Source: Curvibacter delicatus NBRC 14919 (GTDB lineage Bacteria > Pseudomonadota > Gammaproteobacteria > Burkholderiales > Burkholderiaceae_C). Taken from it: DNA of 64,000 nt. The notes beneath the pieces were generated by a model that was not told the DNA's origin, ran no database searches, and saw only the letters and a list, made by a program, of their open reading frames with translations. The stretch is from positions 124,001 to 188,000 of the forward strand of contig NZ_BCWP01000001.1 of NCBI RefSeq assembly GCF_001592265.1, in the 5' to 3' direction. Each line of letters starts with the position of its first letter. The first letter of the stretch is position 1. This document shows, piece after piece, positions 2,086 through 52,800 of this stretch. A program made the position numbers and the translations under genes.

Positions 2086-2150
2086 ATGTGCCAAAAAGGC
2101 CTCTGGACCTTGTCAATTCTGCGCAATCAGCTATGAATTCGATAGCAAAT
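2086..2150 (-). repeat. CR1 dispersed repeat, hisB-hisH junction
   Basis: On the minus strand this reads GCTAT-N7-ATAGC, then a GCGC core, GACAAGG and a GGCC end. It aligns along its length with the copies at 29683-29740 and 9646-9709. It fills the gap between the hisB stop and hisH, and the first possible hisH ATG (2133) lies inside its palindrome. Confidence 0.75.
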
Positions 2151-2816
2151 GGGGTGACTGCCAAGACCGTGGCGGTGGTCGACTACGGCATGGGCAATCT
2201 GCGCTCGGTGTCGCAGGCGGTGCAGGCCGCTGCAGCCGACACCGGCTGGCACGTGCTCATCACTTCCCGGCCCGACGATGTGCGCGCCGCCGAGCGTGTG
2301 GTGCTGCCCGGCCAGGGCGCCATGCCCGACTGCATGCGTGAGCTGCGCGACTCCGGCCTGCGCGACGCGGTGCTGGAAGCGGCCGTGAACAAGCCGCTGT
2401 TCGGCGTTTGCGTTGGCATGCAGATGATGCTGGACCACAGCGCCGAGGGCGACACGCCCGGCCTGGGCCTGATCCACGGCGAGGTGCTCAAGTTCGACTT
2501 GGCGAACCAACGCCAGCCCGACGGCAGCCGCTACAAGGTACCGCAGATGGGCTGGAATCAGGTTTACCAGATGGACCACGGCCAGGGCCGTCACCCGGTC
2601 TGGGGCGAGGTGCCGGACGGCAGCTACTTCTACTTCGTGCACAGCTTCTATGCCCGACCGTCGGATGCGCGCCACAGCGCAGGCGAGGCCGACTACGGTG
2701 GCCGCTTTGCGGCGGCGATTGCGCGCGATAATATTTTCGCGACCCAATTCCACCCCGAGAAAAGTGCTGCCCACGGCTTGGCCCTTTACCGCAACTTCCT
2801 TTCTTGGAAGCCCTGA
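2133..2816 (+). CDS. hisH: Imidazole glycerol phosphate synthase, glutamine amidotransferase subunit
   Basis: A class I glutamine amidotransferase that supplies ammonia to HisF for the step that closes the imidazole ring. VVDYGMGNL near the N-terminus, the nucleophile Cys in GVCVGMQ (Cys93 when counted from this ATG) and QFHPEKS near the C-terminus complete the catalytic set. The start is ambiguous. ATG 2133 lies inside a CR1 repeat, while GTG 2154, just past the repeat, would give a protein beginning [12 protein letters not shown], closer to the usual HisH N-terminus. Neither has a strong Shine-Dalgarno sequence. Length is 227 residues from the ATG or 220 from the GTG. Confidence 0.93.
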
Positions 2817-2870
2817 TCCATTTCCCTTTGTCCCGGCTGAATCCCTAGCCCTATTCTTCTTCGAAGCACC

Positions 2871-3611
2871 ATGCTTTTAATTCCTGCCATCGATTTGAAA
2901 GACGGTCACTGCGTTCGCCTGAAACAGGGCGACATGGATCAATCGACCACCTTCGGGGAAAACCCGGCGCTCATGGCGCGCAGCTGGGTGGACAAGGGCG
3001 CACGCCGTCTGCACTTGGTGGACCTGAACGGCGCCTTTGCGGGCCAGCCGAAGAATGAGCAGGCGATCCGCAGCATCCTGAAGGAAGTCGGCAGCGAAAT
3101 CGACGTGCAGCTCGGCGGCGGCATCCGCGACCTCGATACCATCGAGCGCTACCTCGACGCCGGCCTGCGCTACGTCATCATTGGCACCGCCGCGGTCAAG
3201 AACCCGGGCTTCCTGCAGGACGCCTGTACCGCTTTCGGTGGCCACATCATCGTCGGTCTGGATGCCAAGGACGGCAAGGTGGCGACCGATGGCTGGAGCA
3301 AGCTGACGCGCCACGAAGTGGTGGACCTGGGCAAGAAGTTCGAGGACTACGGCGTCGAGTCCATCATCTACACCGACATCGGCCGCGACGGCATGCTCTC
3401 GGGCATCAACATCGAGGCCACGGTCCGGCTGGCGCAGGCGCTGACCATTCCCGTCATCGCCTCCGGCGGCCTGAGCAACATGGCCGACATCGAAGCGCTG
3501 TGTGCGGTGGAGGACGAGGGCATCGAGGGCGTGATCTGTGGCCGTGCCATCTACACCGGCGATCTCGACTTCCAGGCGGCCCAGATCCGGGCCGATGAAC
3601 TCAGCGCCTGA
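2871..3611 (+). CDS. hisA: ProFAR isomerase
   Basis: A 246-residue (beta/alpha)8 barrel that performs the Amadori isomerisation of ProFAR to PRFAR in histidine synthesis. The N-terminal [11 protein letters not shown] holds the catalytic Asp8, and a second Asp lies in TDIGRDGM at the start of the second half-barrel. LGGGIRD and ASGGL are phosphate-binding loops. It lies 54 bp after hisH and 11 bp before hisF, with which it shares an ancestral fold. Confidence 0.96.
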
Positions 3612-3622
3612 AAGTAATCTGC

Positions 3623-4414
<792 letters not shown>

Positions 4415-4433
4415 TTCCCCTGCCAAATCGGGC

Positions 4434-4439
4434 GACAAT
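4434..4439 (+). promoter_or_regulatory. Candidate -10 element just upstream of hisI
   Basis: GACAAT ends 6 nt before the hisI ATG, and there is no Shine-Dalgarno sequence between them. If active, transcription would begin at or very near the ATG, giving a leaderless internal hisIE transcript. No convincing -35 is visible. Confidence 0.35.
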
Positions 4440-4445
4440 AGCGCC

Positions 4446-4835
4446 ATGAACTGGTTGGACGAAGTGAAATGGGATGCGCAGGGCCTGGTGCCGGTGATCG
4501 CGCAGGAGCAGGGCAGCAACGATGTCCTGATGTTTGCCTGGATGAACCGCGAGGCGCTGCAGAAGACGGCCGAGCTTGGCCGCGCCGTGTATTTCAGCCG
4601 TTCGCGCGGCAAACTGTGGTTCAAGGGCGAGGAATCTGGCCATGTTCAGACGGTGCACGAGATCCGCCTGGATTGCGACAACGACGTGGTGCTGCTCAAG
4701 GTGACTCAGCTTGGCCATGAGCCCGGCATTGCCTGCCACACCGGGCGCCACAGCTGCTTTTTCAGCATCTACAAGGACGGGAGCTGGCAGGCCGTCGACC
4801 CGGTCTTGAAAGACCCTGAAACCATCTACAAATAA
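4446..4835 (+). CDS. hisI: Phosphoribosyl-AMP cyclohydrolase
   Basis: A 129-residue zinc enzyme that opens the adenine ring of phosphoribosyl-AMP. The conserved [12 protein letters not shown] and [10 protein letters not shown] segments carry the metal-binding Asp and Cys residues. It is separate from HisE here, whereas many enterobacteria have a HisIE fusion. The ATG at 4446 is selected by protein alignment and lacks a Shine-Dalgarno sequence; a -10-like hexamer precedes it closely. Confidence 0.95.
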
Positions 4836-4839
4836 CGCC

Positions 4840-5223
4840 ATGTCCGATACGCGTACGAATTCCGCCGATGCCTTGGCCCGCCTGGCGGCCGTGGTCGAGA
4901 GCCGCCTGCCTGCCAACGGCGGCGACCCCGACAAGAGCTATGTCGCTCGTTTGCTGCACAAGGGGCCGGATGCCTTTCTGAAGAAGATCGGCGAGGAAGC
5001 CACGGAAGTGGTGATGGCGGCCAAGGATGCGGACCACGGCGGCGATCGCGGCAAGATCCTCTACGAGGTGGCCGATCTCTGGTTCCATTCCATGATTGCC
5101 CTGGCGCATTACGGCCTGACACCGGCGGACGTGATCGCCGAACTGGAGCGCCGCGAGGGCACCAGCGGCATCGAGGAAAAGGCGCTGCGCAAGGCACTGG
5201 CGCGCGAGGGCGGCGAGCAGTGA
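4840..5223 (+). CDS. hisE: Phosphoribosyl-ATP pyrophosphatase
   Basis: A 127-residue all-alpha NTP pyrophosphohydrolase of the MazG-like fold that removes pyrophosphate from phosphoribosyl-ATP. The conserved [14 protein letters not shown] segment supplies the metal-binding Glu residues, followed by EVADLWFH. It starts 4 bp after hisI and its TGA overlaps the GTG of the next gene, so it is part of the same coupled operon. Confidence 0.95.
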
Positions 5224-5609
5224 GCCTGAACCCGGACCGGAGCGAAGCCGAGCGGCTGCAGTCCCTCACCACGCTGGGGACGGTCAGCTACGTGCTGCAC
5301 CTGATCGTGGCGGTCGGCGCCCTGGTGCCGGGGGCGCAGATCAGCCCGGTGCTGCTGGTCGTGGCCTTGGTGCTCGACCTGGTCAAGCGCCCGGACGCCG
5401 AAGGCAGCTGGCATGCTTCGCATTTCCGCTGGCGCATCCGCACCGTGCTGATCGCTGCCGCACTTTACGTGCTGACGGCACCGCTGTGGTTCTTCTTTTT
5501 CGTGCCGGGCTGGCTGGCCTGGCTCGCTATCTCGGTCTGGTTCCTCTACCGCATCATCAGCGGCATGGTGAACATGAACAAAGGTCTTCCCATGGAGTTT
5601 TCTGCATGA
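5220..5609 (+). CDS. Small membrane protein in the his operon (DUF4870-like)
   Basis: A 129-residue protein with three predicted membrane segments (about residues 18-36, 38-55 and 78-110). It contains [11 protein letters not shown] between the second and third helices, a pattern resembling small DUF4870-type integral membrane proteins. Its function is not known. It overlaps hisE by 4 bp (GTGA) and the following HIT gene by 4 bp (ATGA), so it is translationally coupled on both sides and very likely expressed. The GTG start follows from that overlap. Confidence 0.75.
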
Positions 5610-5974: not shown

Positions 5975-6040
5975 TTTGGGTTGGGCCGTGCGGCCGCCCA
6001 CTGTGAAGATTAGAATCGTCAAATTCTTGAGGAGTGATAT

Positions 6041-6277
6041 ATGGGTTCGTTTTCTATCTGGCACTGGCTGATCGTGCTGCTGATCGTGGTGATGGTGTTC
6101 GGCACCAAGAAGCTCAAGAATCTGGGCAGCGACCTCGGTGGCGCCGTCAAGGGTTTCAAGGACGGCATGAAAGACGGTGCTTCCACTGAGGAAAAGCCGG
6201 CTGCGCCCGCCGCCCAGGTGTCTGCTCCGGCTGCGGACAAGACCACCATCGACGTCGAAGCCAAGACCAAATCCTGA
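6041..6277 (+). CDS. tatA: Twin-arginine translocase subunit TatA
   Basis: A 78-residue protein with one N-terminal membrane helix (about residues 4-20), the [10 protein letters not shown] hinge and an amphipathic helix, then a soluble Ala-rich tail. TatA oligomerises to form the conduit for folded proteins. A strong Shine-Dalgarno sequence (GAGGAG) precedes the ATG, and a TAGAAT hexamer at 6011-6016 could be a -10 element, suggesting tat transcription separate from the his operon. Confidence 0.94.
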
Positions 6278-6294
6278 TTGCCGCCTAGGCAGAC

Positions 6295-6756
6295 ATGATC
6301 GATCTCGGCATTTCCAAGATGGCGCTGATCGGCGCGGTGGCACTCATTGTCATCGGGCCGGAGAAGCTGCCGCGCGTGGCCCGCACCGTCGGCACCCTGC
6401 TGGGCAAGGCGCAGCGTTATGTGGCCGATGTCAAGGCCGAGGTCAACCGGTCCATGGAGCTCGACGAGCTCAAGAAGATGAAGGACACGGTCGAAGGTGC
6501 GGCGCGCGATGTCGAGAGCTCGATCCAGACCACCACCAGCGATTTCGAGAAGAGCTGGTCCGAGGCGACTTCGGGGCTGGAGTCCAGCGGTCTGGACGTG
6601 CCGATCGGCTATCCCGAGTACAAGCATCCCGGCAAGAACTGGCGCCTCAAGCGCGGTGCCACGCCGGTCTGGTACAAGGCCCGGCATGGGGTGCGTACCC
6701 GGGCGCAGTCCGGTGCTGCCCGGGTGGCCCGTTTCCGGCCGCAAAGACTGAGCTGA
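6295..6756 (+). CDS. tatB: Sec-independent translocase subunit TatB
   Basis: A 153-residue protein with an N-terminal membrane helix (about residues 7-21) followed by the diagnostic [15 protein letters not shown] long amphipathic and charged helix (about 25-90) follows, then a basic tail. With TatC it forms the signal-peptide receptor of the Tat pathway. It lies 17 bp after tatA and before tatC. Confidence 0.94.
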
Positions 6757-6832
6757 AGATCCTCTGACCCCCTATCCATCGGGCTGCAGCCGCTGATCGC
6801 GGCGGGCGGTTCGAGTACCGAGCAAACAACGC

Positions 6833-7624
6833 ATGGCAGACGATCAATCCAAAGAAGACGAGTTGGCAGGGACCGAGCAGCCGTTTGTTCAGCACCTGAT
6901 GGAGCTGCGCGACCGCTTGGTCAAGTCCATGATCGCGATGGCGGTGGTCACTGTGGTGCTGGCGCTCTACCCGGGCCCGGCTGCGCTGTACGACATCCTG
7001 GCGGCGCCGCTGGTGGCGCACCTGCCCAAGGGCGCCACACTGATCGCCACCTCGGTGATCTCACCCTTCATGGTGCCGCTCAAGATCATGCTGATGACGG
7101 CCTTCCTGGTAGCACTGCCGGTCATCCTGTACCAGGCCTGGGCCTTTGTGGCGCCCGGCCTCTACACCCATGAGAAGAAGCTGGTGTTGCCGCTGGTGAT
7201 CTCCAGCTCCATCCTGTTCTTCATTGGCGTGGCCTTCTGCTATTTCTTCGTGTTCGGCCAGGTGTTTGCCTTCATCCAGGGCTTTGCACCCAAGAGCATC
7301 ACGGCCGCGCCGGACATCGAGGCCTATCTGAGCTTCGTGCTGACCATGTTCCTGGCCTTCGGTCTGGCCTTTGAGGTGCCGATCGTGGTCATCGTGCTGG
7401 CGCGCATGGGCATTGTCAGCGTGCAGAAGCTCAAGGAGTTCCGCGGCTATTTCGTGGTGCTGGCCTTCATCATCGCCGCCATCGTGACGCCACCGGACGT
7501 GGTATCGCAGCTGGCGCTGGCCATCCCGATGGTGCTGCTGTACGAGTTGGGCCTGTGGGCAGCCCAGATCTTCATCAAGCACACCCAGGCGCCTGCCGAG
7601 GACGCCGAGGCACCGCAGCCCTGA
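6833..7624 (+). CDS. tatC: Sec-independent translocase subunit TatC
   Basis: A 263-residue polytopic protein with six predicted membrane helices. The N-terminal FVQHLMELRDRLVKS is the conserved cytoplasmic motif that contacts the twin-arginine signal. The C-terminus is short and acidic. tatA, tatB and tatC form a complete core Tat system. Likely substrates in this window are the lytic transglycosylase at 33840, with an RRSFG motif, and possibly the Rieske protein at 11256. Confidence 0.95.
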   Translation: MADDQSKEDELAGTEQPFVQHLMELRDRLVKSMIAMAVVTVVLALYPGPAALYDILAAPLVAHLPKGATLIATSVISPFMVPLKIMLMTAFLVALPVILYQAWAFVAPGLYTHEKKLVLPLVISSSILFFIGVAFCYFFVFGQVFAFIQGFAPKSITAAPDIEAYLSFVLTMFLAFGLAFEVPIVVIVLARMGIVSVQKLKEFRGYFVVLAFIIAAIVTPPDVVSQLALAIPMVLLYELGLWAAQIFIKHTQAPAEDAEAPQP

Positions 7625-8802: not shown

Positions 8803-9192
8803 GTGCTGGCTGTGAAACCGTCGTTCGTGATCCACATTCAGCCCCAGGCGGCGCCTAAACCGGCCAGCGGCGCGCCTTGCAATGGCTGCGGCGTCTGCTG
8901 CCTGAGCGAGCCTTGTCCGCTGGGGATGCTGCTGTCGCACCGGCGAACCGGGGCTTGTGCGGCCGTGCGCTGGGATGCGGTGGCAAACCAATACCGCTGT
9001 GGTGCCATGGTGGATGCGACGACCGTGTTGCACCAGGCGCTGCCACCGGGCCTGCGTTGGCTGGCATCGGCCACAGCGCCGCTGCTGCGCCGTCTGGCGC
9101 GCCGCTGGATTGCTGCCGGCCAGGGCTGCGACAGCGACCTGGCGGTGCAGGGCCCGGCCGGCAGCCAATCTGACCGACAATCACCGTCATGA
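8803..9192 (+). CDS. Conserved cysteine-cluster protein (YkgJ-like)
   Basis: A 129-residue protein with an N-terminal cysteine cluster, CNGCGVCC at about residues 26-33, followed by Cys38 and two further cysteines downstream. The pattern resembles YkgJ/UPF0153-type proteins thought to bind zinc or an Fe-S cluster. The enzymatic role is unknown. The GTG at 8803 is the most upstream start; GTG codons at 8812 and 8827 are alternatives. The stop overlaps the Nif3-family gene start (ATGA at 9189-9192), implying co-translation. Confidence 0.65.
   Translation: MLAVKPSFVIHIQPQAAPKPASGAPCNGCGVCCLSEPCPLGMLLSHRRTGACAAVRWDAVANQYRCGAMVDATTVLHQALPPGLRWLASATAPLLRRLARRWIAAGQGCDSDLAVQGPAGSQSDRQSPS
9176..9181 (+). 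promoter_or_regulatory. Candidate -10 element before the Nif3-family gene
   Basis: GACAAT ends 7 nt before the ATG at 9189, with no Shine-Dalgarno sequence. It lies in the end of the upstream gene and could drive a leaderless transcript. Confidence 0.3.
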
Positions 9193-9947
9193 CAGACCGC
9201 CAACAGCTCCTCCAGGCTTTCGATGCCTTGCTGCAGCCTGAGCGTTTCCGCGATTACGGCCCCAACGGCCTGCAGGTCGAGGGTCGTTCCGAGATCCGCA
9301 AGATCGTCTCCGGCGTCACCGCCAGCCGCGCCCTGATCGAGGCCGCCATCGCCGCACAGGCTGACGCCATCTTCGTGCACCACGGCCTGTTCTGGCGCGG
9401 CCAGGACGGGCGGGTGACCGGCTGGATGAAGCAGCGCCTGGCTTTGCTGCTGGCGCACGACATCAACCTGTTGGCCTACCACCTGCCGCTGGATGCACAT
9501 CCTGAATTCGGCAACAACGCCCAACTGGGTCTGCAACTGGGCTTGCGGGCGGAAGGGCGCTTTGGCGAGCAGGACCTGGGTTTTCTGGGGACGCGGATGC
9601 AGGGTACTGACTTCGCGACGGCTGGCGATCTGGCTGCCCATGTGGAAAAAGCACTAAATCGGCCAGTGACCATTGTCAATACAGCGCAAGACGCTATTAA
9701 AAATATAGCATGGTGCACAGGCGGGGCGCAAGGTTATTTCGAGGCGGCGATTGCCGCCGGGGCCGATGCCTTCATCACTGGCGAGATTTCCGAGCCGCAG
9801 GCGCACTATGCGCGCGAATGCGGCGTCGCCTACATCGCGTGCGGCCACCATGCGAGCGAGCGTTATGGTGCGCCGGCGGCGGCCGCGCATGTGGCCGCGC
9901 AATTGGGGTTGACCCATGAATTCATCGAGATCGACAACCCCGCCTGA
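9189..9947 (+). CDS. Nif3-like dinuclear metal-centre protein
   Basis: A 252-residue NIF3/YbgI-family protein. Metal-ligand motifs are visible: FVHHGLFWRG (about residues 57-66), AYHLPLDAHPEFGNN (about 95-109) and GHHASERYG near residue 220. Some family members act as GTP cyclohydrolase-like or other metal-dependent hydrolases, but the cellular role is not settled. A CR1 repeat is translated in frame at about residues 153-174, just before the conserved AWCTGGAQGYFE. That makes the segment between the two metal-binding halves repeat-derived in this strain. Confidence 0.9.
   Translation: MTDRQQLLQAFDALLQPERFRDYGPNGLQVEGRSEIRKIVSGVTASRALIEAAIAAQADAIFVHHGLFWRGQDGRVTGWMKQRLALLLAHDINLLAYHLPLDAHPEFGNNAQLGLQLGLRAEGRFGEQDLGFLGTRMQGTDFATAGDLAAHVEKALNRPVTIVNTAQDAIKNIAWCTGGAQGYFEAAIAAGADAFITGEISEPQAHYARECGVAYIACGHHASERYGAPAAAAHVAAQLGLTHEFIEIDNPA
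9646..9709 (-). repeat. CR1 dispersed repeat inside the Nif3-family gene
   Basis: On the minus strand it reads GCTATATTTTTAATAGC, then TTGCGC, TTGACA and GGCC. It matches the copies at 2086-2150 and 29683-29740 element by element. It is read in frame by the host gene without introducing a stop. Confidence 0.7.
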
Positions 9948-21037: not shown

Positions 21038-21127
21038 CACCCCCGACTCTCGCTCACTTCGTGTAGCTCGCATCCCCCCTCAAGGGGGCGCACCCAGCGG
21101 CCCGGCGAAGCCGGTTCCACGGGTGCT
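21038..21127 (-). repeat. CR2 GC-rich dispersed repeat after argJ
   Basis: On the minus strand it reads GGGCCGCTGGGTGCG, then CCCCCTTGAGGGGGG, a CACGAAGTGAGCGA stretch and GGGGGTGC. The first 30 bases are nearly identical to the copy between ugpA and ugpE. It occupies most of the gap between argJ and the DUF815 gene. Confidence 0.75.
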
Positions 21128-21161
21128 TGCGAAGGGAGTCAGGCGATCACCGAGTAGAGAC

Positions 21162-22037
21162 ATGAACGAGAAATTTGACCGTCTGATCGATCGTGCCGAG
21201 CAGCTGATGGCGCGCATCGAATCCATCCTGCCGCAACCGCTGGCCCAGCCCGACTGGACGGCTTCCATCGCTTTTCGTTACCGCAAGCGCAGCTCAGGCC
21301 ATGGCGTCATCGAGCCGGTGCGTCATGTAGGGGCAATGCATCTGGATCAGCTCAAGGAAATTGAGCAGCAGAAAGAGAAGATCCAGCGCAACACCGAGCA
21401 GTTCGTGCGCGGCCTGCCGGCCAACAATGTGTTGCTGACCGGCGCGCGCGGCACCGGCAAGTCATCGCTGATCCGGGCCTGTCTGCACACCTATGCCGAT
21501 CAGGGGCTGCGTCTGATCGAGGTCGACAAGGCCGACATGGTTGATCTGCCGGATATCGTTGAGGTGGTGTCGCAGCGGCCCGAGAAGTTCATCGTCTTCT
21601 GTGATGACCTGAGTTTCGAGGAGGGTGAGCCGGGCTACAAGGCGCTCAAGTCCATCCTCGACGGTTCGGTGGCCGCCACCACGCCCAATGTGCTGATCTA
21701 CGTCACCAGCAACCGGCGCCACCTGTTGCCCGAGTACATGAAGGACAACCTCAGCTATGCGCCGAGTGACGATGGCGAGATCCATCCGGGCGAGGTGGTG
21801 GAGGAGAAGATTTCCCTCTCTGAGCGTTTTGGTCTGTGGGTGAGTTTCTACCCGTTCAGCCAGGATGAGTACCTAACCATCGTCGCGCAGTGGCTGTCGT
21901 CTTTCCAGGTCGACGCTGCCGCCATCGAGGCCGCCAAACCCGAAGCCCTGGTGTGGGCCCTGGAACGCGGTTCGCGCAGTGGCCGGGTGGCCTTCCAGTT
22001 TGCCCGCGACTACGCCGGCAAGCACGCGCAGGCATGA
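21162..22037 (+). CDS. DUF815 AAA-type ATPase
   Basis: A 291-residue P-loop protein. The Walker A motif LLTGARGTGKSSLIRA lies near residue 95. A Walker B-like FIVFCDDLSFEEGEPGYK and a sensor-like VLIYVTSNRRHLLPE follow, which is the DUF815 pattern. The function is unknown; related proteins are AAA+ ATPases without an assigned substrate. ATG 21162 is chosen because the region before it is CR2 repeat. The stop overlaps the MutT start by 4 bp (ATGA). Confidence 0.88.
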   Translation: MNEKFDRLIDRAEQLMARIESILPQPLAQPDWTASIAFRYRKRSSGHGVIEPVRHVGAMHLDQLKEIEQQKEKIQRNTEQFVRGLPANNVLLTGARGTGKSSLIRACLHTYADQGLRLIEVDKADMVDLPDIVEVVSQRPEKFIVFCDDLSFEEGEPGYKALKSILDGSVAATTPNVLIYVTSNRRHLLPEYMKDNLSYAPSDDGEIHPGEVVEEKISLSERFGLWVSFYPFSQDEYLTIVAQWLSSFQVDAAAIEAAKPEALVWALERGSRSGRVAFQFARDYAGKHAQA

Positions 22038-22525
22038 CACAACGCCCGTTGATGGCCGATGCCGACCGCCCGCGCGAAGGCGGCGCAGACCGGCCTGTGA
22101 CCGAGGTTGCCGTGGGCGTGCTGATCCGGCCCGATGGCAGTTTTCTTCTGACCTCGCGCCCGCAGGGCAAGGTCTATGAGGGCTACTGGGAATTCCCGGG
22201 TGGCAAGCTGGAAGCCGGTGAAACGGTGGAGCAGGCCTTGCGGCGCGAGCTGGAGGAGGAACTTGGCATTCATATCGGTGCCGTTCACCCTTGGAAGTCG
22301 GAAGTTGTTGACTATCCCCATGCCTTGGTGCGCTTGAATTTCTGCAAGGTGTTCGAGTGGCTAGGCGAATTGCAGATGCGTGAGAGCCAGTCGTTCGCCT
22401 GGCAGCAGTTGCCGGTTCAGGTGGTGCCCGTGTTACCCGGGACGGTGCCGCTGCTGCAATGGCTGGCCGAGGAGCGCGGCTTTCAGGGTGCTACACATTC
22501 GATAGCGTCTGGCGCAGATAAATAA
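22034..22525 (+). CDS. mutT: MutT-like Nudix hydrolase (8-oxo-dGTPase candidate)
   Basis: A 163-residue Nudix protein. The Nudix box begins at GGKLEAGE and continues through RRELEEELG, matching the GX5EX7REUXEEXGU pattern. MutT sanitises 8-oxo-dGTP; specificity here is inferred from overall similarity only. The C-terminal tail ATHSIASGADK and the stop codon fall within a CR1 repeat, so the tail is probably not ancestral. It is co-translated with the DUF815 ATPase. Confidence 0.85.
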   Translation: MTQRPLMADADRPREGGADRPVTEVAVGVLIRPDGSFLLTSRPQGKVYEGYWEFPGGKLEAGETVEQALRRELEEELGIHIGAVHPWKSEVVDYPHALVRLNFCKVFEWLGELQMRESQSFAWQQLPVQVVPVLPGTVPLLQWLAEERGFQGATHSIASGADK

Positions 22526-22548
22526 AGGTCTGGGGTCGGATTCCGCTT
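22490..22548 (+). repeat. CR1 dispersed repeat forming the MutT gene end
   Basis: GCTACACATTCGATAGC is followed by TGGCGCA, AATAAAGG and CTGGGGTCGGATT. The second half is closely similar to the copy at 41653-41710, which has TGGCGCA, AATAAGGG and CTGGAGTCAGATT. It provides the last codons and stop of the MutT gene. Confidence 0.7.
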
Positions 22549-22552
22549 CGAA

Positions 22553-22771
22553 TCACTGGAGCTTGGGGTCGCCGAACTCCTGATCGTCCGGCGGTGCCTC
22601 GGCGGGCATGCGGAAGTCTTCGCTGGCCCAGGCGCCGAAGTCGATCTGCTTGCAGCGTTCGCTGCAGAAGGGGCGGTAGGGGTTGCTGGGCGCGTAGATG
22701 CTGTCGCCGCCACAGGTTGGGCAGACGACGATTCTGGGCTGGCGGGGGGCGTTGTTGACGGAATCGCTCAT
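22553..22771 (-). CDS. yacG: DNA gyrase inhibitor / zinc-binding protein YacG
   Basis: A 72-residue protein with a four-cysteine zinc site, [10 protein letters not shown] and [14 protein letters not shown], exactly the YacG pattern. In E. coli YacG binds GyrB and inhibits gyrase. ATG 22771 gives the standard length; a longer frame continues upstream but lacks conserved sequence. It ends the coaE-zapD-yacG group common in proteobacteria. Confidence 0.92.
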
Positions 22772-28525: not shown

Positions 28526-29677
<1,152 letters not shown>

Positions 29678-29682
29678 AATCC

Positions 29683-29740
29683 GCTATTTAATTCATAGCT
29701 ATTCACGCCTGGATGACAAGGGCGAAAAGCCAAAATGACC
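29683..29740 (+). repeat. CR1 dispersed repeat between obgE and proB
   Basis: GCTATTTAATTCATAGC, then CACGCCTGG, ATGACAAGG and AAAGCCAAAATGACC. Aligns base for base over most of its length with the minus-strand copy at 2086-2150. The last bases contain the ATG at 29735 used here as the proB start. Confidence 0.78.
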
Positions 29741-30871
29741 CATCAAACAGCTTCAGGCGTCATGCGCGATGCGCGACGCATTGTCGTCAAGGTCGGCTCC
29801 AGTCTGGTGACCAACGAGGGGCGCGGTCTGGACCAAGTGGCCATCGGCGAATGGTGCCGCCAGCTGTCGACGCTGGTGCGCGAGGGACGTGAAGTCATCA
29901 TGGTCTCCAGCGGCGCCATTGCCGAAGGCATGAAGCGTCTGGGCTGGAGCAGCCGTCCGCACGAGATCCACGAACTGCAGGCCGCGGCCGCGGTGGGCCA
30001 GATGGGCCTGGCGCAGATGTACGAAACCCGGCTGCGCGAACACGGCCTGGGCAGTGCCCAGGTGCTGTTGACCCATGCCGACCTAGCCGACCGTGAGCGT
30101 TACCTCAATGCGCGCTCCACCCTGCTGACGCTGCTCAAGCTCGGCGTGGTGCCGGTGATCAACGAGAACGACACGGTGGTGACCGACGAGATCAAATTCG
30201 GCGACAACGACACGCTGGGCGCCTTGGTGGCCAACCTGGTCGAAGCCGATGCCCTGATCATCCTGACCGACCAGAAAGGCCTGTACACGGCCGACCCGCG
30301 CAAGGACCCGGCCGCTCAGTTCGTGCACGAAGCCCAGGCCGGCGATCCGACGCTGGAGACCATGGCCGGTGGCGCCGGCTCCAGCCTTGGCAAGGGCGGC
30401 ATGATCACCAAGATCCTGGCGGCCAAACGTGCGGCCGGCTCCGGTGCCTCCACCGTGATTGCCTGGGGACGCGAACCTGATGCCCTGCTCCGCTTGGCGC
30501 GCGGCGAGGCGATCGGCACCCTGCTGGTGGCGCAAACGCAGAAGAACCAGGCACGCAAGCAATGGATGGCCGACCACCTGCAACTGCGGGGTGCTGTGGT
30601 GGTCGATGCCGGCGCCGCGGTCAAGCTGCTGGAAGAGGGCAAGAGCCTGCTGCCCATCGGCATGACCGCGGTGGAGGGGGAGTTCTCGCGTGGCGACGTG
30701 ATCGCGGTGCGGGACGAAAGTGGGACCGAGATCGCGCGCGGCTTGGCCAATTACGCCAGTTCCGAGGCGCGGTTGCTGTGCCGCAAGCCTTCGGCTGAAT
30801 TCGAAAAGCTGCTGGGTTATACCGCCGAGCCGGAGATGCTGCACCGGGACAACCTGGTGCTCGCTCGCTGA
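29735..30871 (+). CDS. proB: Glutamate 5-kinase
   Basis: A 378-residue kinase that phosphorylates glutamate in proline synthesis. The amino-acid kinase domain covers about residues 10-260 ([32 protein letters not shown] in part). A C-terminal PUA domain covers about 285-365. The ATG at 29735 lies in the end of a CR1 repeat; ATG 29762 ([10 protein letters not shown]) is an equally plausible start and would remove the nine repeat-proximal residues. No proA is adjacent. Confidence 0.94.
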
Positions 30872-40825: not shown

Positions 40826-41650
40826 TCAAGAATTGGGCAGGCAAGCCCCGCTACAGCGCGCAATGCCCGCCAGATCGGCGCGCGATTGTGTCTCGTGCAG
40901 CCCGGCTCTGCTCAGCAGGCCGCGCACGGCATCGGCCTGGTCCCAGCCGTGCTCCAGCAGCAGCCAGCCACCCGGTTGCAGATGGGCCGACGCCTGGGCG
41001 GTGATGGTGCGGATGTCATCCAGACCGTCGCGGCCGGCGGTCAGCGCCTGGCGCGGTTCATGGCCGAGGGCGGCCAGGTGCGGGTCACCCTCGGCGATGT
41101 AGGGCGGGTTGGAGACGATCAGGTCGAAGCGGCCTTCCAGCCCAGCCAGCCAGTTGCCCTGCCGGAACGTCACATCCAGTCCCAGGCGTTGTGCATTGGC
41201 ACGCGCCACCGCCAGCGCATCGGCACTGGCATCCACCGCACTCACTTGCGCATCGGGGCGGGCATGCTTGAGTGCCAGGGCGATGGCGCCGCTGCCGGTG
41301 CCCAGATCGACCACACGCGGCGCTGGCAACCCTGCCAGACGTTCCAGTGCCCATTCCACCAGTGTTTCGGTGTCGGGGCGCGGGTCGAGCACACGCGCAT
41401 CCACCTGCAGCGGCAGGCCGTAGAACTCCTTGACGCCGGTCAGGTAGGCGAGTGGCTCGCCACCGGCACGGCGTCGTGCCAGTGCCAGGAAGCGCTCCAT
41501 GGCCTCAGGGTCCAGCGCGTCGCTGTCATGTGCCAGCAGCCAGGCGCGATCGTGTGCCGACCGGCCCAGGGTGTGCAGCAGCAGGAGCTGGGCATCGAGC
41601 CGGGGCAGGCCGAGGGTACGGGCAGCAGCGAGGGCTTGGCTGAGCTGCAT
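40826..41650 (-). CDS. prmC: Peptide chain release factor N5-glutamine methyltransferase
   Basis: A 274-residue SAM-dependent enzyme that methylates the GGQ glutamine of release factors. The catalytic NPPY is present ([12 protein letters not shown]), and the SAM-binding [13 protein letters not shown] is visible. It is encoded just downstream of its substrate gene prfA, the standard arrangement. A CR1 repeat lies in the 69-bp gap before it. Confidence 0.95.
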
Positions 41651-41652
41651 TT

Positions 41653-41710
41653 GCTATGAAAAAGAGAGTGCCTGGCGCATATTGAATAAGGGCTGGAGTC
41701 AGATTTCTTG
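41653..41710 (+). repeat. CR1 dispersed repeat between prfA and prmC
   Basis: GCTATGAAAAAGAGAG, then TGGCGCA, TTGAATAAGGG and CTGGAGTCAGATT. The second half matches the copy at 22490-22548 closely, while the palindrome arm is degraded. It fills the gap between the prfA stop and prmC start. Confidence 0.6.
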
Positions 41711-41719
41711 CTGATTCAA

Positions 41720-42907: not shown

Positions 42908-44167
42908 CTAACGCTCTTTGCGCAAGAAGAAGTGCTGAATGGCGTCGCTGGCACGTTCGCGTGCAGCCGCGTCGCCGGCATGCAGTTCGGCCAGCGCGCC
43001 GTGCAGCATTTTTTGCGTCAGGCCCTTGGCCATGGCTTCCAGCACGGCATCCACGTCCTCGCCCTTGGCCAGTTGCCGGCGCGCGCGCGCGATCTCGGCG
43101 TTGCGCCATTCATCGGCCTGGGCGTTGAGCTGCTGGATCAGCGGCACGCTGCGGCGCTGGTCCATCCAGTGCAGGAAGCTCTGCACACCGGCGTCGATGA
43201 TGACTTCGGCCTCGGCCACGGCGGCCTGGCGGTTGGCCTGCGCGGTCTGCACCACGGCGGCCAGGTCATCCACGGTGTAGAGGTAGACGTCGGACAGCGC
43301 CTTGACCTCGGGTTCGATGTCGCGCGGCACCGCCAGGTCGACCATGAACATGGGGCGGTGGCGGCGTAATTTCAGGGCGCGTTCCACCGCACCCAGGCCG
43401 ATCAGCGGCAGCGTGCTGGCGGTGCAGCTCACCACGGCGTCGAATTCGTGCAGGCGGCTGGGCAGGTCGGCCAGGCGCATGACCTCGGCACCGAAGCGGG
43501 AAGCGAGTTTTTCACCGCGGTCGAGCGAGCGGTTGGCAATCACCATCGCCTTCGGGTTCTTCGCCGCGAAGTGGGTGGCGGCCAGCTCGATCATCTCGCC
43601 GGCACCGACGAACAGCACCCGGATGTCGCTCAGGTCTTCGAACAGCTGGCCGGCCAGGCGCACGCTGGCAGCCGCCATGCTGATGGAGTGGGCGCCGATC
43701 TCGGTCGAGGTGCGCACTTCCTTGGCCACGGCAAAGGAGCGCTGGAATAACTGGTTGAGCGTGGTGCCCAGGGCGCCGGCTTCTTCGGCGGCGCGCACCG
43801 CGTCCTTCATCTGGCCCAGGATCTGCGGCTCGCCCAGCACCATGGAGTCCAGCCCACTGGCCACGCGGAAGGCATGGCGCGCCACCTGGCCGTCTTCCAG
43901 TGCGTAGGTGTGTGAGCGCAGGAGCGCGGGCGAAACGCCGCCGCTGTGGGCCAGCCAGTCCAGGGTGGGAACGATTTCCAGCTGGTCGCCGGCACAGTAG
44001 ATCTCGGTGCGGTTGCAGGTGGAGATGATGGCGGCCTCGGGCGGACGCGGCAGGGCGCCGCGCAGGCCGTGCAGGGTGGGGCCGATCTGGTCGAGGGCGA
44101 ACGCAAAACGGCCGCGCAGATCGAGCGGCGCGGTCGTGTGATTGATGCCTAATGCCCAGACTGCCAT
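42908..44167 (-). CDS. hemA: Glutamyl-tRNA reductase
   Basis: A 419-residue enzyme that starts tetrapyrrole synthesis by reducing glutamyl-tRNA to glutamate-1-semialdehyde. The catalytic cysteine is in STCNRTEIY (about residues 48-56), with the NADPH-binding [17 protein letters not shown] near 195. It heads hemA-prfA-prmC. A TATAAT on the minus strand ends 6 nt before the ATG. Confidence 0.95.
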
Positions 44168-44173
44168 CGCCCG

Positions 44174-44179
44174 ATTATA
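44174..44179 (-). promoter_or_regulatory. Candidate -10 element of hemA
   Basis: Perfect TATAAT on the minus strand ending 6 nt before the hemA ATG, with no Shine-Dalgarno sequence between. Transcription from it would begin at or next to the start codon. No good -35 at 17 bp. Confidence 0.45.
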
Positions 44180-44236
44180 AAATTTGCCGATGCCTCAAGC
44201 TTTTGCCCTCTTTTTGGCCTTGTCAGGCCGGCTGCC

Positions 44237-44515
44237 ATGAGCCCGCTGGATATGCTGCTGCACTTGGCCAACTTTGCTGCGCCGGCGCTGGTGCTGGCCT
44301 TGTTGCTGCCTCTGATTGCCCACTTCTTCATCAAAAAACAGGCGCCAGCGCTTGCCTGGTGGGCGCAAGCAGCTATCAATTTTGTAGTGGGTGTGGTCGT
44401 GCTGCTCGTCGGCCTGTGGCTGTGGAGCCGCGACGGCAAGATGGTCACCTATGCCCTGCTGGTGCTGGCGCTGGCCAGCAGCCAGTGGCTGTTGTCACGC
44501 GGCTGGCGCAAATAG
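44237..44515 (+). CDS. Small membrane protein containing an in-frame CR1 repeat
   Basis: A 92-residue protein with three hydrophobic segments (about residues 11-30, 47-63 and 74-85). No family recognised. Codons 32-51, including HFFIKKQAPALAWW in part, coincide with a CR1 repeat that introduces no stop. Its 3' end overlaps the 3' end of ugpQ on the other strand by 21 bp. Position next to hemA and the predicted helices support a real gene, but the repeat content weakens this. Confidence 0.6.
   Translation: MSPLDMLLHLANFAAPALVLALLLPLIAHFFIKKQAPALAWWAQAAINFVVGVVVLLVGLWLWSRDGKMVTYALLVLALASSQWLLSRGWRK
44331..44387 (-). repeat. CR1 dispersed repeat inside a small membrane protein gene
   Basis: On the minus strand it reads CTACAAAATTGATAGCTGC, then TTGCGC, GGCAAGCGC and GCCTGTTTTTTG. 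It shows the fullest form of the second half, with a TTGCGC/GCAAGCGC inverted pair. It is translated in frame by the host gene. Confidence 0.72.
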
Positions 44516-47120: not shown

Positions 47121-47182
47121 CGTGGCTTCCGCCTTATTGCATAGTGCGTGACCCACAAGGTGTGAGCCCTCCAGTCAGATGC

Positions 47183-47342
47183 GCAGGCACCCGCGGAACC
47201 GGCAGTGCCGGGCCGCTGGGTGCGCCCCCTTGAGGGGTTGAGGGCTGCGGCTCCCAGCCTGCCTGCGCAGGCTGGGACAGCCTGAAGGGCCACGACCTCT
47301 GGTCGTCGGCATCGGGCGCCAAAGGCGCTTCGGGGGTGTTCC
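47183..47342 (+). repeat. CR2 dispersed repeat, long form, between ugpA and ugpE
   Basis: Begins CCGCGGAACCGG, GGGCCGCTGGGTGCG and CCCCCTTGAGGGG, then an extra internal part with two hairpins: CCCAGCCTGC/GCAGGCTGGG (47252-47275) and ACGACC/GGTCGT (about 47292-47306). It ends CGCTTCGGGGGTGTTCC. It is longer than the other copies and lies within the ugp operon. Confidence 0.75.
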
Positions 47343-47343
47343 A

Positions 47344-48315: not shown

Positions 48316-49626
48316 TCAGGACTTGTTGGCTTTCTGGAAGCGCTCCAGCTGCTCGTTGCCGCGTTTGACGGCCACATCCAGCGCCTCTTTCGGTGCCTTC
48401 TTGCCGGCCCACACGCCTTCGAGTTCCTCGTCGATGATGGTGCGGATCTGCACGAAGTTGCCCAGGCGCACGCCGCGCGACTTGTCGGTGGTCTTGCGGA
48501 TCATCTGCGTCACCGACACATCGGTGCCGGGGTTCTTCTTGTAGAAACCCGATTTGTCGGTCAGCTCGAAGGAAGCCTTGGTGACGGGCAGGTAGCCGGT
48601 GCGCTGGTGGCTTTTCGCGGCCACTTCGGGTTGCGACAGGTAGCTGAAGAAAGCGGCCACACCCTTGTAGTCGGCGGCTTTTTTGCCGTTCATCACCCAC
48701 AGGCTGGCACCGCCGATCACCGTGTTCTGCGGTGCGCCCTGCACGTCGGGGTAGTAGGGCAGGGTGCCGATGCCGTAGCCGAACTTGCCGTTGCGCACGA
48801 CGTTGCCGTACAGCGCCGAGGAGCCGGTCATCATGGCGCATTCGCCCGAGACGAAGGTGGCATCGGCGGCATTGCCGCGGCCCTTGTAGACAAACAGGCC
48901 GGACTTGGCCATGTTGGCCAGGTTTTCGATGTGGCGCACGTGCAGCGGCGAGTTGAACTCCAGGCGCGTGTCCAGGCCACCAAAGCCGTTGTTCTTGCTG
49001 GCGAACAGCACGTTGTGCCAGGCCGAGAAGCTCTCCAGCTGGGTCCAGCTGATCCAGCTGGTGGTGTACGGGCACTTGTGGCCGCTGGCCTTGAGCTTGG
49101 CGGCTGCCAGGGCCACCTCGGGCCAGGTGGTCGGCGGCTTCTCGGGGTCGAGGCCGGCGGCCTTGAAGGCGTCCTTGTTGTAGTGGAAGACCGGTGTCGA
49201 ACTGTTGAAGGGGAAGCTCAGCATCTGGCCGTTGGGGGCGGTGTAGTAGCCGGCGACGGCGGGCACGTAGGCGTTCTGGTCGAATTTCTGGCCGCCTTCC
49301 TTCATGACCTCGGCCACCGGCTTGATGGCGCCCTTGGAGGCCATCATGGTGGCGGTGCCGACCTCGAAGACCTGGAGAATGTGCGGGGCATTGCCGGCAC
49401 GGAAGGCCGCAATGGCGGCTGTCATCGACTCGTCATAGCTGCCCTTGAAGGTCGGGGTGACCTTGTAATCCTTCTGGCTGGCGTTGAAGTCGCGGGCCAG
49501 ATCGTTGACCCATTCGCCCAGGGCGCCGCCCATGGAATGCCACCACTGGATCTCGGTCTGGGCCTGGGCGGGGGCCAGCAACAGGGTGGAGAGGGCGGCA
49601 AGCGCCAGTTTCGTTTTCAAACGCAT
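48316..49626 (-). CDS. ugpB: Glycerol-3-phosphate-binding periplasmic protein
   Basis: A 436-residue extracellular solute-binding protein (family 1). The signal peptide is about residues 1-22, ending PAQAQ. The mature start TEIQWWHSMGG and GGASLWVMNGK are typical of UgpB. It captures glycerol-3-phosphate and glycerophosphodiesters in the periplasm. First gene of ugpBAECQ, preceded by AAGGAG and a candidate PhoB box. Confidence 0.95.
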   Translation of the reverse strand: MRLKTKLALAALSTLLLAPAQAQTEIQWWHSMGGALGEWVNDLARDFNASQKDYKVTPTFKGSYDESMTAAIAAFRAGNAPHILQVFEVGTATMMASKGAIKPVAEVMKEGGQKFDQNAYVPAVAGYYTAPNGQMLSFPFNSSTPVFHYNKDAFKAAGLDPEKPPTTWPEVALAAAKLKASGHKCPYTTSWISWTQLESFSAWHNVLFASKNNGFGGLDTRLEFNSPLHVRHIENLANMAKSGLFVYKGRGNAADATFVSGECAMMTGSSALYGNVVRNGKFGYGIGTLPYYPDVQGAPQNTVIGGASLWVMNGKKAADYKGVAAFFSYLSQPEVAAKSHQRTGYLPVTKASFELTDKSGFYKKNPGTDVSVTQMIRKTTDKSRGVRLGNFVQIRTIIDEELEGVWAGKKAPKEALDVAVKRGNEQLERFQKANKS

Positions 49627-49654
49627 GGGTTAACTCCTTGAAGACAAGATGCCG

Positions 49655-49688
49655 AGCCTAGTCGGGTGATATGTCAGTCTTGTTACGG
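49655..49688 (-). promoter_or_regulatory. Candidate PhoB box and -10 of the ugp operon
   Basis: On the minus strand, 49688-49671 reads CCGTAACAAGACTGACAT, matching about 13 of 18 positions of the CTGTCAT-AWAW-CTGTCAY Pho box. Exactly 10 bp further is a weak -10 (TAGGCT, 49655-49660), the spacing expected when PhoB replaces the -35. The ugp operon is Pho-regulated in E. coli. Confidence 0.6.
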
Positions 49689-49818
49689 TTTGATTAAACC
49701 TCGGGCGGCAGTCCCTGGGGACCCGGGGTTACCATGAGGCGAACAGGTGAATGCTGCGCTGCGGTAACATCACCCCTCAGCCGGGTTCTACCGTTCTGGC
49801 TGAAATTCCAGATTTCCC

Positions 49819-52800
49819 ATGAACGCACCGACTCCGCTTGATCAGCTTGTGAATGCGCCCGGCGTTGCGCCGCACGGCCACGAACGCATCCGCGAAATTC
49901 CCTACAACTACACCTCGTTCTCCGACCGCGAGATCGTGATCCGCCTGCTCGGCATGCGTGCCTGGGAGGTGCTCAACCAACTGCGCGAGGAGCGTCGTAC
50001 CGGCCGTTCGGCCCGCATGCTGTACGAGGTGCTGGGCGATGTCTGGGTGGTGCAGCGCAACCCCTACCTGCAGGATGACCTGTTGGACAACCCGAAGCGC
50101 CGCGCCCAGTTGGTGGAGGCCTTGCGCCATCGCCTGGGCGAAGTTCAGAAACGCCGCACGCCGCAGGACGACCCGCAGCGTGATGCCTTGGTCGGTGAGT
50201 TGCTGGTGGCGGCCAGCCAGGCGGTCACATCCTTCGACGCCGCGTTCCAGGAGATTGCCGCCCTGCGCCGCAAGGCCCAGCGCAGCCTGAGCCGTCTGAC
50301 CGCGAAAGACAATGTCAAGTTCGACGGCCTGAGCCGCGTGTCCCATGTGACCGATGCCACCGACTGGCGTGTCGAGTACCCCTTTGTCGTGCTGACGCCC
50401 GACACCGAAGCCGAAATGGCCCATCTGGTCAAAGGCTGTATTGAGCTCGGTCTGACCATCATCCCGCGTGGCGGCGGCACCGGCTACACCGGCGGCGCCG
50501 TGCCGCTGACCTGGAAGAGCGCGGTCATCAACACCGAGAAGCTCGAGGCCATGACCGAGGTCGAGATGGTGCAGCTGCCCGGCCTGGACCGGCCGGTGCC
50601 GACCATCTGGACCGAAGCCGGTGTGGTGACGCAGCGCGTGGCCGATGCGGCCGAACGCGCCGGTTTTGTCTTTGCGGTCGACCCGACCTCGGCCGAGGCT
50701 TCCTGCGTGGGCGGCAACATCGCCATGAACGCCGGCGGCAAGAAGGCCGTGCTGTGGGGCACGGCGCTGGACAACCTGGCCTCGTGGCGCATGGTGACGC
50801 CTGATGCCGGCTGGCTGGAAGTCACGCGCATCAACCACAACCTGGGCAAGATCCACGACGCCGAGCTGGCCAGTTTTGAGCTGAAATACTTCGAGGCCGA
50901 CGGCAAGACGCTGGTGAAGACCGAGCGCCTGGACATCCCGGGCCCGAGTTTCCGCAAGGAGGGCCTGGGCAAGGACGTGACCGACAAGTTCTTGAGCGGC
51001 CTGCCCGGCATCCAGAAGGAAGGTTGCGACGGCCTGATCACCAGCGGCCGCTGGGTGGTGCACCGCATGCCGGCGCACACCCGCACCGTCTGCCTGGAGT
51101 TCTTCGGCAATGCGCGCGACGCCGTGCCCAGCATCGTCGAGATCAAGGACTTCATGTTCGCCGAGCAAAAGCGCAGCGGTGTGTTGCTGGCGGGGCTGGA
51201 GCACCTGGACGACCGTTACCTGAAGGCAGTCGGCTACGCCACCAAGAGCAAGCGCGGCGGCCTGCCCAAGATGGTGCTGTTCGGCGACATCTCCGGGGAC
51301 GATGCCGATGCTGTGGCGCGTGTTACGTCCGAGGTGGTGCGCATCGCCAATTCGCGCAGCGGCGAGGGCTTCATTGCCATCAGCCCGGAAGCGCGCAAGA
51401 AATTCTGGCTTGACCGCAAGCGCACCGCGGCCATCAGCAAACACACCAACGCCTTCAAGATCAACGAAGACGTGGTGATTCCGCTGCCCCGTATGGCCGA
51501 GTACACCGACGGCATCGAGCGCATCAACATCGAACTCTCGCTGCGCAACAAGATCAAGCTGTGCGATGAGCTTGAGGCCTTTTTCAGCCAGGGCGATCTG
51601 CCGCTGGGCAAGCAGGACGACGCCAACGAGATTCCCTCGGCCGAACTGCTGGAAGACCGTGTGGCGCAGGGCCTGGCCCTGGTCGGCGAGGTGCGCACGC
51701 AGTGGCAGGGCTGGCTGCGCGATGTGGATGCGCTGTTCCCTCAGTTGCAGGACCACAGCCTGCGCGCCAGCTGGAAGACGCAGATCCGCGCCCAGCTGCA
51801 AAACATCTTTGCCGGCAGCGCGTTCGACGCCATCCTGGCCGAGTGCAATGCCATCCATCAGCGCGTGCTCAAGGGCCGGGTCTGGGTGGCGCTGCACATG
51901 CACGCCGGCGACGGCAATGTGCACACCAACATCCCGGTCAACAGCGACGACTACGAGATGCTGCAGGCCGCCCACGAGGCAGTCAAGCGCATCATGGCGC
52001 TGGCGCGCTCGCTCGACGGCGTGATTTCGGGCGAGCACGGCATCGGCATCACCAAGCTGGAGTTCCTGAGCGACGACGAGCTGCGCCCGTTTGCCGACTA
52101 CAAGCACCGTGTTGACCCCGAGGGGCGTTTCAACAAGGGCAAGTTGCTACGAAATCAGGAGCTGTCGGCGCAGAAGGATCGGGCATCAGAGGCCGATTCG
52201 CCGCTGGGCCGCCCCGAGGCGAATCAGCCCCCCGGGGGGGCAGCGACCCGCGAAGCGGCGGAGCGTGGGGGCATCCTGTATGCCGATTTGACCAATGCCT
52301 ACACACCGAGCTTCGGCCTCATGGGGCATGAGTCGTTGATCATGCAGCAGTCCGATATCGGCGCCATCGCCGACAGCGTCAAGGACTGCCTGCGCTGCGG
52401 CAAGTGCAAGCCGGTGTGCTCCACGCACGTGCCGCGCGCCAACCTGCTGTACAGCCCACGCAACAAGATCCTGGCGACCTCGCTGCTGGTGGAGGCTTTC
52501 CTGTACGAGGAGCAGACCCGCCGCGGCATCTCGATCCGCCACTGGCAGGAGTTTGAGGACGTGGCCGACCACTGCACGGTCTGCCACAAATGCCTGTCGC
52601 CCTGCCCGGTGAAGATCGACTTCGGCGACGTGTCGATGAACATGCGCAATCTGCTGCGCAAGATGGGGCAGAAGACCTGGCGCCCGGGCAATGCGGCGGC
52701 CATGTTCTTCCTCAATGCCACCAACCCCGAGACCATCAAGCTGATGCGCTCGGCCATGGTGGGGGTGGGCTTCAAGGCGCAGCGCCTGGCCAACCAGCTG

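Follow-up and report, generated by a model that had tools for sequence, protein, structure and literature searches.

The DNA uptake sequences (DUS) of Neisseriaceae and the uptake signal sequences (USS) of Pasteurellaceae are described, in the passages of three papers that deal with them (PMC2397512, PMC3630211, PMC1939737), as many unlinked copies in genes and spacers that arise in pre-existing sequence, are more conserved than their flanks, differ in dialect among genera, are absent from recently acquired genes, are evenly spaced, and have degenerate A/T tracts. One of these papers makes the case that recombination, and not point mutation, gives rise to many new DUS (PMC2397512). Here, we report on CR1, a repeat of ~65 bp with seven copies in a 64,000-nucleotide stretch (the window; contig NZ_BCWP01000001.1, positions 124,001 to 188,000) of Curvibacter delicatus NBRC 14919, and we conclude firmly that it is an ancient recognition motif, kept by selection or drive, and not a transposing element.

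CR1 is like DUS and USS in being over-represented, with unlinked copies in genes and spacers of its host taxon, in its in-place origin at the tested sites (with exceptions, such as SrkA and some longer proteins), in having informative positions that are more conserved than their flanks (15 sites), in its lineage dialects (genomes G283 and G279), degenerate A/T tracts, and even spacing, and in its scarcity in acquired DNA (21 viral contigs). It is unlike them in its length (~65 bp versus cores of 9 to 10 bp, or 16 to 29 bp extended), in being ~10-fold sparser, and in having an inner inverted repeat.

In repetitive extragenic palindromic (REP) sequences, a tetranucleotide (RTAG- or GGAG-like) stands ahead of an imperfect palindrome. 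CR1 resembles REP sequences and REPINs with their REP-associated tyrosine transposase (RAYT) in being short and of high copy number, in combining such a tetranucleotide with an imperfect palindrome, and in often having a copy beside the RAYT gene. It differs from them in that most of the checked copies overlay coding sequence with no indels, in having orthologous sites across genera, and in not being tied to RAYT presence. Rickettsia palindromic elements (RPE) are short palindromic repeats that lie in frame in genes, as CR1 can, and are inserts that lengthen the protein. In contrast to RPE and to miniature inverted-repeat transposable elements (MITEs), most checked CR1 copies add no length, and none of the five sites comparable in CR1-poor relatives is a clean empty site, with SrkA as a partial exception. 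The BRE repeat is portrayed in its original description (Hot et al. 2011, PMC3110155) as a tandem repeat of about 90 bp, 69% GC, and variable copy number, which is scattered over Bordetella and Comamonadaceae genomes and found in spacers, at the ends of genes, and within them. CR1 shares the dispersal in spacers, gene ends, and gene interiors and was set apart from BRE by description, being ~65 bp long, 41 to 60% GC in the window copies, and single. A literature search found no description of CR1, including a genus-name search inside PMC2817692, PMC3733652, and PMC12306157, which does not prove that CR1 is unpublished, and it found no paper linking a DNA uptake sequence with Comamonadaceae.

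Identification of CR1 in the window

An earlier note on this DNA had listed seven copies of a 50-65 bp repeat, which lie dispersed in either orientation, within genes and at their edges. We searched the window with R1, a gap-free profile of 117 CR1 copies that all come from other genomes, and found exactly these seven, with E values from 6.5e-14 to 7.5e-7 and none further up to E = 10. Four copies lie on the plus strand and three on the minus strand, as follows.

2086..2149, minus strand: CR1 copy 1 (R1 47.8 bits, E 6.5e-14), filling the gap between the hisB stop (2083) and the hisH start
9650..9710, minus strand: CR1 copy 2 (R1 26.8 bits, E 2.4e-7), in frame inside a Nif3/YbgI family gene (9189-9947, plus strand)
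22488..22553, plus strand: CR1 copy 3 (R1 27.6 bits, E 1.4e-7), C-terminal residues and stop of a Nudix-like open reading frame (ORF; 21890-22525), plus 3' flank
29681..29745, plus strand: CR1 copy 4 (R1 33.5 bits, E 1.9e-9), between obgE (28607-29677) and proB
41650..41714, plus strand: CR1 copy 5 (R1 25.3 bits, E 7.5e-7), upstream of prmC (40826-41650, minus strand)
44334..44388, minus strand: CR1 copy 6 (R1 43 bits, E 2e-12), in frame in a small membrane-protein ORF (about 44153-44515, plus strand)
52143..52202, plus strand: CR1 copy 7 (R1 30.2 bits, E 2.1e-8), in frame inside a 1,331-aa FAD-oxidase/Fe-S fusion ORF (49819-53814, plus strand)

The places, orientations, and gene contexts given in the note are thus borne out, as are its statements that at least three copies are translated in frame (copies 2, 6, and 7) and that one forms a gene end (copy 3). 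Its proposal that two copies may supply start codons is only partly right: judged from the sequence, the tail of copy 4 may contain the proB ATG (29735), while copy 5 does not qualify because its GCTAT begins 2 nt beyond the prmC start codon. The hisB and hisH genes that flank copy 1 were identified by NCBIfam. The related genome G297 has copy 1 at the same place and also has copy 3; copy 4 is found in G297 and G294, copy 6 in G297, G294, and G309, and copy 5 in the last three except G294, in which its region is rearranged.

The repeat itself is real, with a length of ~65 to 67 bp in place of the 50-65 bp first reported. In the profile sets its spacing is gap-free, its edges are sharp, and there are zero indels; counted from the first G of GCTAT, it spans about -1 to 64. 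Its consensus is TTGCTAT-N7-ATAGCTGCTnGCGC-N11-GsGCTAGAGGCCnATTTGnCynnAAA, with an inner inverted repeat, GCTAY-N7-RTAGC, a RAYT-like tetranucleotide (RTAG/GGAG) ahead of an imperfect palindrome, and an information content of ~50 bits (0.709 per position in the profile). Base-pair covariation in CR1 was not above expectation, save for a weak excess between positions 27/28 and 36/37; a second RNA hairpin that had been proposed was not upheld by this test, and compensatory changes in the aligned copies give little support to the CR1 palindromes as folded structures. Rfam at gathering thresholds gave no match at CR1.

We also considered that the copies might be look-alikes, produced by chance or coding constraint and inflated by a loose consensus. 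Our first consensus drew in part on what the CR1 family was expected to look like, so the consensus scan is weak evidence by itself: six of the seven window copies score 27 to 34 of 39 positions and the copy at 52146 scores 25, which is also the top score in five Markov-shuffled windows. Weak sites exist as well, such as a stretch in a coding region at 1202-1271 (minus strand; score 13.6, and 17.7 in G297), which could be a nascent or decayed CR1 site. However, the profile made from other genomes recovers just the seven copies in the window, a reversed-sequence control had no match above score 18 compared to 230 in the real sequence (including 123 matches to the recruiting pattern), and there are no sites in 245 kb of CR1-poor relatives versus 12 in 154 kb of the window's own contig. 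The recruiting pattern comprises 26 bases, 18 of them fixed, so the profile statistics for those bases were taken from copies found without it; alternative patterns, whose loop length was wrong or which allowed too many mismatches, matched at chance level. We regard the look-alike explanation as refuted, with next to no probability left.

Copy number and distribution of CR1

All CR1 copy numbers per genome are lower bounds. The window genome holds at least 150 copies, or about 330 when extrapolated from the density of 78 to 88 per Mb in contiguous stretches of its own contig and of G297; with many copies in relatives as well, the profile search that the note had suggested does not return chance frequencies. 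Among 84,980 species genomes, a 26-base pattern matched at least 119 stretches. Most of the 80 matches listed come from genomes named as Polaromonas, Rhodoferax, Acidovorax, Simplicispira, or further Comamonadaceae, and the remainder from metagenome-assembled genomes. We found CR1 in 11 of 250 genomes of the order, 5/7 in the window's family and 6/243 outside it, the latter with one or two matches each. CR1 is thus nearly confined to one family, mostly Comamonadaceae, and the note was right to recall similar repeats there.

Within the family, counts are bimodal: 20 of 40 genomes have no match, and the other 20 comprise 11 with at least 126, four with 123, 121, 47, and 35, one with 12, and four with a single match. 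We call the 15 family genomes with at least 35 matches, the window genome included, CR1-rich. The genus of the window genome (n = 26) has four members with at least 150 matches, nine with 2 to 18, and 13 without a match.

We called coding-like ORFs by codon GC bias and sorted 260 unique CR1 sites against them: 63 are internal, 89 are at a 5' edge, 30 span a stop, 1 is close to a 3' end, and 77 lie in no such ORF. The in-ORF copies concentrate in sense phase 0 (22 copies) and antisense phase 1 (24 copies), and CR1 spacing is slightly even (coefficient of variation 0.67, p 0.04). The genome-search lists are plus-heavy (100/150 in the window genome, where same-strand runs per contig are above chance at 1 of 5000, and 80/127 in G264). 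When the own contig and the window were scanned directly, 11 plus and 6 minus copies were counted. We suspect that an excess of plus strands across arbitrarily oriented contigs is a search artifact, and we make no claim of strand bias.

These distributions bear on the possibility that CR1 is selected as the target of a DNA-binding protein of the chromosome, one that acts in the nucleoid, in regulation, in repair, or in recombination and is unrelated to DNA uptake. The inner inverted repeat suggests a dimeric reader, and the fixed sites, constraint, use of both orientations, and dialects described below fit such a protein too, as does the finding that the competence gene comEC does not track CR1. 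However, the 13 genus members without a match and the nine with few would be odd for a core chromosome function, and no replication-linked arrangement was found in G264, where no strand-switch arc stood out (235 of 300 permutations did as well). We consider this explanation rather unlikely, if stronger than the mobile-element readings weighed below.

CR1 overlays existing sequence at most checked sites

The note had regarded CR1 as a mobile palindrome tolerated in genes, in effect a MITE-like element inserting in frame, for which its dispersal, high copy number, and presence on both strands would speak. Five CR1 sites could be compared by synteny with CR1-poor genomes of the same genus, and a clean gap of 60 to 70 bp in the CR1-poor orthologues was found at none of them (a separate ~90-bp repeat in copy 7 being set aside). 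At the copy 6 site, G263 and G305 align gap-free and G293 is one codon shorter, all three being without CR1. At the copy 7 site, G297 and G294 have the whole CR1 in the same codons, with a length equal to that in G288 and G289 and 23 to 24 nt longer than that in G263, G293, and G305. The CR1-poor genomes differ in length at the copy 5 site by +12 (G263), -6 (G293), +16 (G305), +30 (G289), and +34 nt (G288), at site C1b:1519 by 0 or -1 nt, and at site C1b:10573 by -8 or -11 nt. In G263 and G293, C1b:1519 keeps the inner inverted repeat and not the rest of CR1. The copy at C1b:10573 overlies the beginning of gpsA (an NCBIfam assignment), at its start codon and the codons next to it, and the protein begins MKIVVIGAG with CR1 and MKILVLGAG in the CR1-poor G263 and G293.

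Residue-level alignments of six hand-picked proteins were gap-free or had a one-residue gap at CR1 in four cases. PurK and TrpD show no gap through the CR1 residues against distant homologues, an ABC ATPase has a one-residue gap, and the Nif3 protein of copy 2 has one 1-residue gap against Escherichia coli YbgI (1nmo), with 3 residues missing at the same stretch against Thermus TTHA1606. The other two are SrkA, with ~12 extra residues at CR1, and GluQRS, in which CR1 lies in an unaligned loop and which we counted against overlay. The Nif3 alignment and the copy 6 comparison partly bear out the alternative named in the note, that the in-gene copies are ancestral protein sequence.

We also compared 30 proteins, hand-picked from 63 in-ORF rows with some ORFs repeated, to their top NCBIfam models, which span CR1 in 25 of them; the other five have no model over CR1. 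Whole-protein length, which cannot locate extra residues, was within 8 aa of the model in 15/25, and the Nif3 protein has a net difference of +4 or +1, depending on the model. The remaining 10 exceed their model by +10 to +53 and none of the 25 is more than 7 aa shorter, which leaves room for added stretches around some of the in-gene copies; L037 (+28), itself among the ten, has only a one-residue gap at CR1. On these alignments, CR1 overlays pre-existing sequence in most checked cases, and the other copies may lie in permissive or added stretches.

CR1 sites are retained and constrained

Of 19 own-contig sites, one lacked a G297 orthologue in hand and was dropped; CR1 is common to all 18 readable sites at about 91% identity, with scores of at least 29 at 17 of the G297 sites and a weak 13.1 at one. 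We also compared 12 genomes of other genera, of which 10 were readable at gpsA, 10 at C1b:1519, and 6 at C1b:2846. The CR1 copy at the gpsA start codon recurs in 7/10 (G252, G253, G259, G261 with a weak score of 19.3, G264, G271, and G283) and is lacking there in G251, G279 (which has one just upstream), and G287, and the protein start is kept across genera as M-[KH]-I-[VIA]-V-[IL]-GAGAWG. The copy at C1b:1519 is likewise found in 7/10 (G251, G252, G253, G259, G264, G271, and G283; not in G258, G261, or G287), while a weak site of the same stretch, C1b:2846, is kept in 2/6 (G261 and G283). The sharing of CR1 sites between distant genera makes loss of the motif more likely than original absence for the CR1-poor members of the genus.

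At 15 of the 18 sites shared with G297, the two genomes differ at 22/300 informative positions versus 124/750 other motif positions (p 7e-5); flanks differ at 243/1800 positions (p 0.0025 against the informative positions), a count inflated by shifted gaps at no fewer than two sites. Among 98 own copies there are no near-duplicates, the closest pair agreeing at 56/70 positions compared to maxima of 49 to 55 after column shuffling. Similarity among the copies is slightly more spread than in the shuffled sets (standard deviation 4.43 versus 3.73). In 21 viral contigs, picked by holding the pattern and counted without that anchor copy, we found 2 copies in 199 kb where about 23 are expected from host contigs, ~12-fold fewer.

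For the MITE-like palindrome, the ten long proteins and SrkA remain as support. Against it stand the five sites without a clean empty site, the four alignments with a gap of at most one residue, the lack of near-identical pairs, the orthologous positions in G297 and across genera, and the scarcity in phage contigs. The mobility and tolerance proposed in the note are not supported, and we judge this explanation largely refuted and highly improbable.

CR1 has lineage dialects

Spelling was compared in two genomes, G283 and G279, with rows that include a few low-scoring stretches. Position 24 is C in 98/98 own copies and A in 24/26 G283 copies (24/24 among G283 rows above score 25), and the copy at the gpsA start in G283 has the G283 spelling. 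In G279, position 23 is A in 25/28 copies, and positions 27 to 38 favor AATAAATACGCC, each in 17 to 25 of 28; GGCAATAAATAC is exact in 13/28 G279 rows and in 0/98 own copies. That many unlinked, fixed sites have been re-spelled together points to a shared reader, drive, or homogenizing conversion.

Relation of CR1 to RAYT genes

The note had suggested looking for a REP-associated transposase, and such a gene was found, although it occurs with or without CR1. The Y1_Tnp family is present in 34/40 family genomes, in most of them with a single RAYT-like gene of ~240 aa, in 15/15 CR1-rich and 19/25 other genomes (p 0.07). We scanned 35 RAYT loci, of which 8 gave no RAYT ORF by regular expression; one of these eight, L199 (G287), was scored against a separately identified ORF. 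CR1-like stretches on the minus strand (score at least 5) are present at the RAYT stop in 9/14 CR1-rich loci (G253, G255, G261, G264, G268, G271, G279, G283, and G287; three of the nine weak, at 5.3, 7.5, and 12.6) versus 1/14 CR1-poor loci (G262, 6.2), and the RAYT stop is without one in the window genome, G251, G252, G259, and G275. On the RAYT tree, CR1 status is clustered (4 changes versus 9.5 in shuffles). Rich and poor genomes are paired on this tree (G259 with G267; G261 with G257, which is 65% complete), so the clustering may only mirror species descent.

These data invite the explanation that CR1 is an old REP-type family tied to a single-copy RAYT, in which transposition has ceased and RAYT binding or short single-stranded DNA conversion tracts keep or homogenize the copies. 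The tetranucleotide ahead of the palindrome, the copies at RAYT stops, the presence of Y1_Tnp in every CR1-rich genome, the clustering on the tree, and the partly uniform core of G279 fit it. However, Y1_Tnp is also common in CR1-poor genomes, rich genomes are paired with poor ones on the tree, CR1 is kept no more often at the RAYT stop (9/14) than at gpsA (7/10), and REP insertion does not give gap-free overlays. Movement as insertions, as REP sequences would show, was not seen at the five sites compared with CR1-poor genomes or at the 18 shared with G297. We consider this explanation unlikely, and we demoted RAYT as the obvious CR1 mobilizer, since CR1 is retained equally well at other sites in other genera and RAYTs are common to rich and poor genomes.

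Several genera (L188, L192, L194, L195, and L199) have short repeats, (A/G)AATCTGACCCNNATTATT and GTCCCTAATTATT, immediately downstream of the RAYT stop; these are possibly the transposase's own cognate repeats. The CR1-rich G264 has 20 Y1_Tnp matches on C1 (e.g., 2422373, L180), including four near-identical full-length copies with 153-aa ORFs, which we take to be IS200-like.

Other repeats at and near CR1 sites

A ~90-bp GC-rich repeat (about 52197-52285) splits the 3' half of copy 7, with the ORF staying open. At this position it is found in the window genome and G309, being absent from G297, G294, and the CR1-poor relatives, and it has many matches genome-wide. Unlike CR1, it looks like a true recent insertion; compared by description, it fits BRE in size and GC only. 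A second GC-rich repeat forms an inverted pair in the window (21076-21131 and 47182-47237; 56 nt, 91% complementary) and has many relatives in same-genus genomes (query 6680-6840). At the copy 5 position, three loci of CR1-poor relatives (L218, L219, and L220) have a different inverted repeat, GCTACnGAAAATGTAGCTGCATTC, upstream of prmC.

Discussion

We interpret CR1 as a recognition motif. It would be read by a putative trans-acting DNA-binding factor; a shift in the specificity of this reader would re-spell many unlinked sites together, and its loss would let the sites decay. In the analysis as a whole, an uptake tag is the most likely single function, a choice that we make tentatively and at slightly less than even confidence. 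CR1 would then mark self-DNA in DNA exchange and be propagated through biased uptake with recombination, or through selection, like DUS. Our caution stems from comEC, which is nearly universal and split in G252, from the length and sparsity of CR1, and from the putative nature of the receptor. Verminephrobacter eiseniae, a member of the Comamonadaceae (Table 2 of PMC3110155), is described in PMC4212676 as undergoing natural transformation through type IV pili, with possible sequence specificity of DNA binding inferred by the authors; we count this in favor of the tag. It is possible, with somewhat less confidence than we give to the tag function itself, that CR1 is a third, independent genome-wide self-DNA tag and the first in its family, being long, sparse, and two-part, with a putative receptor, re-spelled in concert, and lost whole in some lineages.

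Several observations weigh against the recognition motif or its use as an uptake tag. The extra residues in SrkA and the ten long proteins leave room for added stretches, the weak site C1b:2846 is poorly kept, and own-copy similarity is more spread than expected from shuffling. The shared core of G279 is equally compatible with homogenization by copying, and ~50 bits are much to evolve through point changes. CR1 is several times longer and ~10-fold sparser than known uptake sequences. We found comEC in 60/64 genomes whatever their CR1 count, so that its presence failed to discriminate CR1-rich genomes, and comEC is split over three frames in the CR1-rich, single-contig G252 (C1:1836740-1837544). 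Short-patch double illegitimate recombination is a known process, on which our literature search found no paper.

Dispersed short repeats are routinely called mobile. CR1 copies number in the hundreds, some of them in orthologous places in different genera, and their sequence overlies genes that include gpsA, trpD, purK, and nif3. How a long DNA word comes to be put in place and re-spelled throughout a genome in the absence of transposition, whether through selection, molecular drive by biased uptake, or short-tract conversion, could be studied in CR1 as a natural test case. Since CR1 is absent from whole lineages, the missing factor should be findable by comparative genomics. If CR1 is a true uptake tag, self-DNA recognition would extend to a large environmental family, and the motif would provide a practical handle for transformation.

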